A stretch of DNA of 51,782 nucleotides from Nitrospirota bacterium (lineage in GTDB: Bacteria > Nitrospirota > Thermodesulfovibrionia > Thermodesulfovibrionales > JdFR-85): contig JAYWMQ010000053.1 in the NCBI GenBank assembly GCA_035873375.1, forward strand, positions 1 through 51,782. Direction: 5' to 3'. The position numbers were made by a program, and so were the translations under genes. Of this stretch, positions 7,423-27,623 are shown piece by piece (positions within the stretch are counted from its first letter, which is position 1; each line of letters begins with the position of its first letter). The notes under the pieces were generated by a model. That model had not been told where the DNA came from and did no database searches. It saw only the letters and a program-made list of their open reading frames with translations.

Positions 7423-7543
7423 CAGCCTTCACTTCTCAATATATTTCGAATTGTGCTGTTTAAGCCGGCCCGCCAGCCTTCGTTTCAAACTCCGGCTTGG
7501 TTCACCGGGCCGTAGCTCGAAAGATATTGAGAAGCGAAGGCTG
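7423..7543. repeat. Long imperfect inverted repeat at the 3' end of ssrA
   Basis: A 28-nt arm at 7423-7450 starting CAGCCTTCACTTCTCAATAT pairs with 7516-7543 with three mismatches. The interior holds further GC-rich complementary pieces (AAGCCGGCCCG against CGGGCC). The right arm runs into the CCA end of the tmRNA gene. It may act as the ssrA terminator or be a repeat inserted at the ssrA end. Confidence 0.6.
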
Positions 7544-7890
7544 GTGGAGGCGGTGGGAATCGAACCCACGTCCGAAAGCACTGCACTCAGGCTCCTACAT
7601 GCTTAGTCTGTCTTTTGGTTTTCAGGCAATTGAGCCGCCGCCAGACAGGCTTCTCAATGCCTTATTCCTCTTTTAGTCTCGCCCAACACCAGAGGAAGGA
7701 ATGTCAGGCCAGCCTGCTGATCGACACCTTTTCGGGATAGCAGACATCTCCCGAAAGATGCGCTGCTTTAATTAAGCAGCGAGTGCCAGTTCGTTGTTGG
7801 CGTTTGTGTTTTTTCCCGTCTTTATTCGTGGTGACGGAACCACGGCATGCAACCTGAGTCTCGTAACCCCCGTCGAATCCATACGCCCCC
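7542..7890 (-). ncRNA. ssrA: Transfer-messenger RNA (tmRNA)
   Basis: tmRNA rescues stalled ribosomes together with SmpB. The 5' end GGGGGCG pairs over 7 bp with the 3' end (CGCCUCC, then A and CCA), forming the tRNA-like acceptor stem. The TGGGTTCGATTCCCA T-arm is present near the 3' end. The internal tag frame ends NTNANNELALAA followed by TAA (stop at 7772-7774), with the typical hydrophobic A-L-A-A proteolysis signal; the resume codon is probably the GGG or AAA just upstream. Length is 349 nt, normal for a one-piece tmRNA. CCA is genome-encoded. smpB ends only 13 bp upstream on the same strand. Confidence 0.97.
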
Positions 7891-24617: not shown

Positions 24618-25154
24618 ATGTGGTTTCAGGAAGCAGAAAGGCTATTTATACTCCCTGTAGCCAAGATACAGTGGTGGCTCCTGAGTGAGGTCAAGGAGGA
24701 GCTCGGGGAAGTCTTTGGCAAGGAAACCATTATAGCAGACGAGATGCCCCCCCCTGTTGAGGTATTAAACAGGGACAGGGGCCAGATCTACTCAACAGGT
24801 TTAATCGAGGCTATTGCGAACAGGTGCTATAATGGAATGGTTCTGGGAATAATAGATTTCGACCTTTTTGTACCAAGCCTCAATTTTGTCTTTGGCGAGG
24901 CAGACCCCGCAGAGGGGGTTGCCGTAGTATCGATTACAAGGCTGAAAGAGGAGTTCTACGGCAGGGGGGCTGATCAAGGGCTGCTGCTGCAAAGGACACT
25001 AAAAGAGGCAATCCATGAAATGGGCCATCTCTACAGTCTCAAGCACTGCCCCGACCCGCGATGTGTAATGCATTTTTCCAACTCTATCGAAGAAACCGAC
25101 AGAAAATCAAAGGAATTCTGTCCTGTTTGCATCAAGATTTTGAGGAATCTTTGA
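24618..25154 (+). CDS. amzA: Archaemetzincin family zinc metalloprotease
   Basis: The 178-aa protein has the metzincin motif HEMGHLYSLKHC (residues 133-144), with downstream C149 and the C168-x-x-C171 pair, giving the two zinc sites of archaemetzincins. A conserved methionine (CVM) provides the Met-turn. Family members are aminopeptidase-like; bacterial copies are uncommon and scattered. It starts 3 bp after mqnD. Confidence 0.9.
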   Translation: MWFQEAERLFILPVAKIQWWLLSEVKEELGEVFGKETIIADEMPPPVEVLNRDRGQIYSTGLIEAIANRCYNGMVLGIIDFDLFVPSLNFVFGEADPAEGVAVVSITRLKEEFYGRGADQGLLLQRTLKEAIHEMGHLYSLKHCPDPRCVMHFSNSIEETDRKSKEFCPVCIKILRNL

Positions 25155-25184: not shown

Positions 25185-25213
25185 TTGCTTTTTCTTCCGG
25201 ATTTTTATATAAT
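25185..25213 (+). promoter_or_regulatory. Strong sigma-70-type promoter for candidate sRNA
   Basis: TTGCTT (25185-25190), 17-bp spacer, TATAAT (25208-25213). The start is predicted near 25220. No gene follows for 300 bp, but a terminator lies about 90 bp downstream. Confidence 0.7.
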
Positions 25214-25219
25214 GGTAAA

Positions 25220-25310
25220 CATACCTACCAGACCCTTTCTCCGCCCCCTCGAGATTGGGTCAAACCCCCGGCCCCCATCTCTTCCCTCCGAGATGGGGGC
25301 CACTTTATTT
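25220..25310 (+). ncRNA. Candidate small RNA with two C-rich hairpin loops
   Basis: The stretch follows a near-perfect promoter and ends at a strong intrinsic terminator. Hairpin 1 pairs GACCC (25231-25235) with GGGTC (25257-25261), with an inner TCTC/GAGA stem and a CGCCCCCTC loop. Hairpin 2 is the terminator, with loop TTCCCTCC. Both loops are complementary to purine-rich Shine-Dalgarno sequences (GGAGG, GGGGG). C-rich loops of this type mark regulatory RNAs that block ribosome binding in other bacteria. It is not a known family to my recognition. The reading is from promoter, structure and terminator only. Confidence 0.55.
25270..25310 (+). terminator. Intrinsic terminator, 12-bp perfect stem
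   Basis: GGCCCCCATCTC (25270-25281) pairs perfectly with GAGATGGGGGCC (25290-25301) over an 8-nt loop and is followed by ACTTTATTT. It could also end the upstream mqnD-amzA transcript. Confidence 0.75.
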
Positions 25311-25387
25311 AAGGTGCCATCCTGCAAGTAGCTGAATCAACACAGAGGTTTATATACGAACTCCGGGGTGCGGAATCCGGAATCCTT

Positions 25388-25517: not shown

Positions 25518-27623
25518 ATGAGCGGCATAGAGAATCTCCTCGACCATAAGTTATTCTTTTTTATCAACAGGTCCCTCTCAAATCCACTCTTTGACACATT
25601 TATGCCGTTCATCACTGACAGGGCTTTAGCTCTGTTACTCCCTGTTGTTTTTTTTATCTTCTGGCAGGACAGAAAGAAGGCCCTACTTGCGATAATCCTC
25701 GGCCTTTCAGCCCTTGCACTCTCGGACGGGCTTTCAAACATCCTGAAGCATTACTTTGAGCGTCCCCGACCCTTTGTAAACCTGACGGATATCATGGTGC
25801 TGGCTGGCAGGGGAAAGTCCTTTTCAATGCCCTCAGCCCATGCCGCCAATACAGCCTCTGTCGCCACGGTACTGATCTACATGTTATCAACGCTGCGTTC
25901 AGGAAGGGCCTCATTATCTTCATCTGCCTCCTCCCTTATCACTATCCTGAGTGGATACCTTGTTGTTGTGGCCTCCACCATTGCATTTTCAAGGGTATAC
26001 ATAGGTGTGCACTATCCATCGGATGTGCTTGCAGGCATGGCTATAGGCATCCTGACAGGCCTGTTTATAATCCTCGTCTTTGTAAAAACAGAGAAATACT
26101 ATAAAATCGCCCCTTATCCGACTGTGCTCGGCGTTGTGCTACTGGTGATGAGCCTGTTCCGGATTTACTATATCTTCGTGGGTCCACTTGACCTCAGCCC
26201 TGACGAGGCACAGTACTGGGACTGGTCACGAAGGCTCGATCTGAGCTATTACTCCAAGGGGCCTGCAATAGCCTACATTATTGCCATAGGAAAGACATTC
26301 CTGGGAAATACGGAGATAGGGATAAGGCTCCCGGCGGTCTTCTTCAGTCTTTTCAGCAGCCTGGTGCTTTATCAGATGGGCAGGGATATGATGAAGAGGG
26401 AAGCACCTGAAGGCTCAGACATGCCGGAGGTTGCAGGGCTCCTCTCAGCACTGCTGATACAGATAGTTCCCCTGTTTTCAACATACGGGATAGTGATGAC
26501 CATTGATTCACCCTTTATATTCTTCTGGACCATCTCCCTATACCTCTTCTATCTTGCACAGAAAGACTGGCCCGAAACAGGAAAGACAAGGCTCCTGTAC
26601 TGGGCCCTGGCAGGGCTGACTGTCGGCATAGGCCTGCTGGTAAAATATACAATGTCATTTTTCTATCTTTCGGCCTTTCTCTATCTCATCACGGACAGGA
26701 AGAGGAGGGGACTCCTTGCGCATCCAGGGCCATGGCTGTCGTTTCTCATAAGCATTTTATGTTTTGTCCCTGTACTGATCTGGAATTCACAACACAACTG
26801 GGTCACTTTTCTGCATACAGCCGGTCAGGCCCACCTTGCTGACGGCTTCAAGCTAACCACAGGACGTTTCCTTGAATTCATCGGCTCTCAATTAGGAGTG
26901 GTTTCCCCTGTTTTCTTCGTATTTATACTTATCAGCCTATTTGTCCTCAGAAAGAAGAATTCAGACGGAAGCCTTCTCTTCTGGTTTTCCATCCCGATTC
27001 TCCTCTTTTTCTCTCTGAAAAGCCTGCAGGGCAAGGTGCAGGCAAACTGGGCACTTCCGGCATACATTGCAGGGTTTATCTCCCTTAGCATCTATACAGT
27101 AAGATACTGGCATGGATTCAGGAAATCCGTCAGGGCCTTACTTGTAGCCGGAGCCTTGATATCCATCGCCATTACTGCAGTAGCCCATTACCCTTCGGCC
27201 ATTAGCCTTCCCCTCAAGATGGACCCGACGGCAAGGCTCAGGGGCTGGAACGAACTGGGAAAAGAGGTCGGCAAAATCGCTGACGAGATGAAAGCCCCAT
27301 ACTTTATATTTTCCGACAGATACCAGGTTACCTCGGAGCTCGCCTTCTATGTGCGGGGAAACCCTGTAACATACAATGTAAACCTCGGCAGGAGGATGAA
27401 CCAGTACGATCTCTGGCCCGGGTTTTACGACCTGAAGGGATACAATGCCATATTTGTAATGACGGGAGACAACCCCCTGCCCAAAAGGATAGGCCGCGCC
27501 TTTGAAAGATGCGACAAGAGGCTATATACCGTAAGAGAGGAGACAAGGGTATTGAGGGATTACAGCATCTTCGAATGCTATGGATTCAAGGGGATGGAGA
27601 GAAAGGCAGCGGATAATTTTTGA
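25518..27623 (+). CDS. PAP2 lipid phosphatase fused to GT39/GT83-like glycosyltransferase
   Basis: The 701-aa protein joins two membrane enzymes. Residues 1-190 form a PAP2 phosphatase with all three motifs: K77...R84-P, PSAH at 105-108 (the usual PSGH glycine is alanine) and SRVYIGVHYPSD at 158-169. From about 195 a polytopic glycosyltransferase of the PMT/ArnT/RgtA type begins, with the acidic loop motif DLSPDEAQYWDWS that binds polyprenyl-phosphate-sugar. Both halves act on polyprenyl-linked substrates at the periplasmic face, so a coupled modification of lipid A or another envelope glycolipid is inferred. It converges with the defence island, leaving an 18-bp gap. Confidence 0.88.
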   Translation: MSGIENLLDHKLFFFINRSLSNPLFDTFMPFITDRALALLLPVVFFIFWQDRKKALLAIILGLSALALSDGLSNILKHYFERPRPFVNLTDIMVLAGRGKSFSMPSAHAANTASVATVLIYMLSTLRSGRASLSSSASSLITILSGYLVVVASTIAFSRVYIGVHYPSDVLAGMAIGILTGLFIILVFVKTEKYYKIAPYPTVLGVVLLVMSLFRIYYIFVGPLDLSPDEAQYWDWSRRLDLSYYSKGPAIAYIIAIGKTFLGNTEIGIRLPAVFFSLFSSLVLYQMGRDMMKREAPEGSDMPEVAGLLSALLIQIVPLFSTYGIVMTIDSPFIFFWTISLYLFYLAQKDWPETGKTRLLYWALAGLTVGIGLLVKYTMSFFYLSAFLYLITDRKRRGLLAHPGPWLSFLISILCFVPVLIWNSQHNWVTFLHTAGQAHLADGFKLTTGRFLEFIGSQLGVVSPVFFVFILISLFVLRKKNSDGSLLFWFSIPILLFFSLKSLQGKVQANWALPAYIAGFISLSIYTVRYWHGFRKSVRALLVAGALISIAITAVAHYPSAISLPLKMDPTARLRGWNELGKEVGKIADEMKAPYFIFSDRYQVTSELAFYVRGNPVTYNVNLGRRMNQYDLWPGFYDLKGYNAIFVMTGDNPLPKRIGRAFERCDKRLYTVREETRVLRDYSIFECYGFKGMERKAADNF

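Follow-up and report, generated by a model that had tools for sequence, protein, structure and literature searches.

The stretch at positions 25185-25310 of the window, by which we mean the whole 51,782-nucleotide DNA of a Nitrospirota bacterium analyzed here, carries promoter-like boxes followed by two hairpins, raising the question of whether it encodes a small RNA and, if so, what this RNA may act on. The features of the locus are collected in Table 1. The TTGCTT-N17-TATAAT element described in an earlier note on this DNA is present as claimed, and the statement in that note that no gene lies here is borne out, with only two short open reading frames of 48 and 40 aa in the ORF list of the window overlapping the small RNA locus, and with RNA-like variation consisting of 1-nt insertions or deletions and compensatory stem changes. 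The locus is flanked by genes for an archaemetzincin-like peptidase M54 (24618-25154) and a PAP2/mannosyltransferase (25518-27623). An Rfam search of the whole window at gathering cut-offs returned only tmRNA, the gene of which is located at 7542-7890 on the - strand and gives the tag peptide ANNELALAA.

Table 1. Positions of the predicted features of the small RNA locus in the window.
Feature	Position	Strand	Remarks
-35-like box TTGCTT	25185-25190	+	TTGCAT in three sister species
-10 box TATAAT	25208-25213	+	17-nt spacer from -35 box; 17 nt before hairpin 1
Predicted small RNA	25220-25306	+	Start predicted from -10 box, +/-2 nt; 3' end uncertain
Single-stranded 5' leader CAUACCUACCA	25220-25230	+	Common to genera with longer leader
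Hairpin 1	25231-25261	+	Stem GACCC-UU-UCUC / GAGA-UU-GGGUC, loop CGCCCCCUC
Loop 1 CGCCCCCUC	25242-25250	+	Nearly invariant; complementary to GAGGGGGCG
Hairpin 2	25270-25301	+	Perfect 12-bp stem; possible weak terminator
Loop 2 UUCCCUCC	25282-25289	+	Complementary to GGAGGGAA, a Shine-Dalgarno-like sequence

The 106-nt stretch at 25215-25320 has a minimum free energy of -44.2 kcal/mol compared with -23.8 +/- 3.1 kcal/mol for shuffled sequences (z = -6.5), and none of 200 shuffles was as stable. In alignment A4, which comprises 17 copies and leans towards the structure of the covariance model because it was fitted to that model, 95.6% of cells pair and 11 of the 21 pairs have changed on both sides, compared with 3.5 +/- 1.3 in shuffles, of which 0 of 500 reach 11. 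Control structures slid along A4 gave at most three doubly changed pairs, and RNAalifold run on A4 returned nearly the same structure with 10 such pairs. Nine sequences aligned with MAFFT alone give the same picture (5 doubly changed pairs versus 2.1). With the outermost stem pair, which is often unpaired, omitted from the count, there are 11 G-U cells and no A-C cells on the + strand (three A-C cells if this pair is kept), indicating that the small RNA is encoded on the + strand. Per-column conservation over 10 copies, to which each genus contributes one or two, is 0.97 in loop 1 and 0.94 in stem 1, followed by loop 2 (0.90), stem 2 (0.83), the spacer (0.65), and the tail (0.59); pairwise identity in the flanks of these copies is 0.27-0.34, little above chance, and the DNA on either side differs from genus to genus. 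Homologous loci devoid of conserved loops and stems, which the earlier note would have taken as contrary to a small RNA, are not what was found: the stems covary and the loops are conserved across eight genera. The locus at 25185-25310 represents a genuine RNA family that had not been listed before.

DNA searches recovered homologs at 89-96% identity in sister species and with E values of 1e-8 to 2e-27 in other genera of the family. A covariance model, R1, was built from nine of these homologs with genome G007 left out, and finds the small RNA in 15 of the 17 genomes of its own Nitrospirota family. As the sequences used to build R1 match by construction, independent support comes from the DNA search and from G007, where R1 finds two copies that are not in the model (3.9e-16 and 1.4e-14). 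A second copy is also present in G011 and, weakly, in G012; the latter (L045 1501-1568, - strand) is degenerate: it retains hairpin 2 with a CCCCCUCC loop, but its hairpin 1 has decayed. No copy was found in G003 (84% complete) or G006 (96%), the remaining two family genomes, and a recheck was again negative. Neither the rest of the order (176 genomes) nor the phylum (396 genomes) yielded anything convincing, a possible distant relative in G021 aside. This G021 locus (L040 1501-1580) comprises a GACCUGUCUC...GAGCUCAGGUC hairpin without a C-rich loop, followed by a second hairpin, which has UACCCCCUCC as its loop, and by a strong U-tail, and is possibly a distant homolog. Other matches outside the family (G162, G088, G238/G240, G146, G090, G092, and G057) were rejected as weak, most showing one hairpin only or G+C-rich repeats, and a partial match in G000 (C13) and G003 (C247), which by inspection resembles coding sequence, was attributed to chance. 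When 84,980 species genomes were scanned for the pattern, all matches were in Nitrospirota except for two chance matches to 23S rRNA; the planctomycete matches were dismissed as chance, resembling by inspection the 3' part of 23S rRNA. Viral contigs gave no match. The searches show that the small RNA is restricted to one family of Nitrospirota. The carriers are metagenome-assembled genomes including HyVt-450, HyVt-545, JdFR-85, and SZUA-77, names that we take to denote hydrothermal or seafloor samples.

The -35 box matches TTGACA at three of six positions, and the exact TATAAT recurs in the sister species as well as in two other genera (G010 and G007). In genera with a CAUACCUACC-type leader, a -10-like box precedes hairpin 1 by 14-17 nt; in the other genera the distance is 6 nt. 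Since promoter scores of single genomes against shuffles were mostly not significant, the promoter assignment is based on this repeated position and on the exact TATAAT in three genera. Two sister species (L009 and L010; genomes G004 and G002) carry a tandem duplication of the 5' leader CATACCTACC directly before hairpin 1, which lengthens the distance from box to hairpin and caused the promoter scan to miss the box; TATAAT is present there. At the other end, the perfect terminator that had been placed about 90 bp downstream is partly confirmed: hairpin 2 has the 12-bp stem, ends 88 nt past the -10 box, and scores as a terminator-like site, but its tail (ACTTTATTTA in the window) makes it a weak terminator. 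Most other genera have no U-tract after hairpin 2, and the 3' end of the small RNA is therefore uncertain.

The copies always lie between genes, in at least six unrelated neighborhoods: M54 peptidase and PAP2 transferase (window genus and G010), an NtrC-like regulator (G012, G015, and one G007 copy), ferrochelatase and an EamA transporter (G008, G009, and G016), ThiF and a flavoprotein (G013), UbiA and dehydroquinase (G011), and amidohydrolase and beta-ketoacyl-ACP synthase III (second G011 copy). A fixed association with menaquinone genes was considered and dropped, as it is not kept across genera. In the window genus the next gene is on the same strand as the small RNA; in most genera a convergent gene lies downstream, so that the small RNA cannot be the leader of the gene after it. 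The small RNA is a free-standing gene, predicted to form a separate transcription unit, and not part of a neighboring gene.

A permissive Rfam search (4227 families, E up to 10) matched a single family, 6C RNA (RF01066, known as B11 in mycobacteria), over its full length with 28.2 bits and an E value of 0.046. The earlier note saw no similarity to a known family, which holds in that no family reaches its cut-off, but it did not name 6C, the closest RNA. It could be argued that the small RNA is a diverged true member of this actinobacterial family, related by common descent or transfer, given that the 6C model ranks the locus first in most family genomes, with up to 37.3 bits in G007, and that both RNAs are free-standing genes of about 75-100 nt with two tandem hairpins in the same order and C-rich apical loops. 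All scores, however, remain below the Rfam gathering score of 47 bits. The 6C RNA is named for two stem-loops with typically six C residues each (PMC4046766), and it has two runs of six or more C, whereas the longest runs in the window are five C in loop 1 and three C in loop 2, the small RNA combining a five-C run with CCCUCC; loop 2 reads UUUCCCUCC in most genera. The 6C RNA occurs in Actinobacteria (Actinomycetales), in contrast to the small RNA, which is confined to one Nitrospirota family with Hfq encoded, is absent from the rest of the order and phylum, and was seen in Nitrospirota only in the 84,980-genome scan, chance matches aside. Convergence can also yield C-rich loops on GC stems. 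With six-C runs missing and the score below the cut-off, the small RNA shares the plan of 6C and is not assigned to that family, and membership by descent or transfer appears unlikely. The Hfq gene is found in 16 of the 17 family genomes, a presence that says nothing about a need for Hfq.

The suggestion that the RNA is of RsaE or sX13 type stands as an analogy of shape only. RsaE has C-rich unpaired stretches complementary to Shine-Dalgarno sequences, as does the small RNA, but its model (RF01820, E up to 10) gave no match at the locus in the 17 family genomes, and identity with RsaE was rejected. The sX13 RNA of Xanthomonas likewise has an unstructured 5' leader and C-rich loops with complementarity to G-rich sites close to the starts of translation, through which it represses translation, with loop and target motifs both needed and Hfq not (PMC3771888). 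It differs in having three hairpins with C-rich loops in 115 nt (PMC3771888), compared with two hairpins in the small RNA.

The complementarity of the C-rich loops to ribosome-binding sites, also proposed in the earlier note, agrees with the loop sequences, the complements of which are Shine-Dalgarno sequences. We consider it likely that the locus is a stand-alone gene for a trans-acting small RNA of about 90 nt on the + strand, with its own sigma-70-type promoter and two C-rich-loop hairpins, which represses translation through Shine-Dalgarno pairing. Transcribed from this promoter, the RNA would fold into two hairpins exposing two C-rich loops; these may base-pair to several mRNAs at their G-rich Shine-Dalgarno regions, which would block ribosome binding and lower translation, as in 6C/B11 and sX13. 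The RNA anatomy is what suggests such an anti-Shine-Dalgarno action, and by analogy with the mycobacterial 6C RNA the small RNA probably dampens translation of other genes. In B11, C-rich loops paired to G-rich mRNA sites repress translation, and an eccB4 leader reporter with a six-G tract was still repressed when only one of the two loops was mutated (PMC10470900). The source genome uses Shine-Dalgarno sites such as GGAGG: of the 49 starts predicted in the window, 37 have a match of at least 4 nt, a count in which start choice was partly guided by that match. Exact 8-nt complements of loop 1 (CGAGGGGG) before ATG are not in excess in the window's own genome (11 versus 9 in the reversed control), the sites examined being mostly within genes or G-rich dispersed repeats, and a search for exact loop-1 complements before ATG found no convincing target conserved between genera. 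A dispersed G-rich repeat like AAAGGGGGGCGAGGGGGGATTT, present at L103, L125, L126, and L127 (G011) and L092 (G000), includes CGAGGGGG, which is exactly complementary to part of loop 1.

The lack of a specific conserved target in that search, together with the resemblance of loop 2 to the 3' end of 16S rRNA (CCUCC), would also fit an RNA whose loops titrate the ribosome or a protein, as an anti-Shine-Dalgarno mimic or protein sponge addressing no particular mRNAs. This is rather improbable, as loop 1 (CGCCCCCUC) is not an anti-Shine-Dalgarno sequence yet is better conserved still, and known RNAs of such shape act on mRNAs. A conserved two-hairpin terminator or attenuator serving the neighboring genes would account for the terminator-like score of hairpin 2, for the many copies between convergent genes, and for the same-strand gene that follows in the window genus. 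Such an element could do without invariant loops, yet here they rank among the best-conserved parts; the U-tract is missing in most genera, a promoter-like element of its own lies upstream, and the neighbors differ, so that no gene is regulated in common, making this reading quite improbable. A short protein-coding gene has in its favor the two overlapping open reading frames and an AUG just before GACCC in several genera, but this AUG is missing in G013, G005, G001, and G011, 1-nt length differences shift the frame inside hairpin 2, contradicting a coding reading, and substitutions follow base pairing, all of which leaves it very improbable. Returning to the translation-repressing small RNA, we propose tentatively that it could be a new, hitherto unlisted regulator acting globally at the post-transcriptional level in a vent-associated Nitrospirota family, its two loops (reading GAGGGGG and GGAGGG) addressing two sets of mRNAs, and that it may have arisen independently of 6C.

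With this locus, Nitrospirota gain a well-supported family of small RNAs; a query of the literature on C-rich small RNA in Nitrospirae returned nothing. The family alignment can be used for an Rfam submission and for annotating the carrier genomes. It also adds another apparently independent case of the design with two C-rich loops, which supports pairing of C-rich loops with Shine-Dalgarno sequences as a repeatedly evolved form of translation control.
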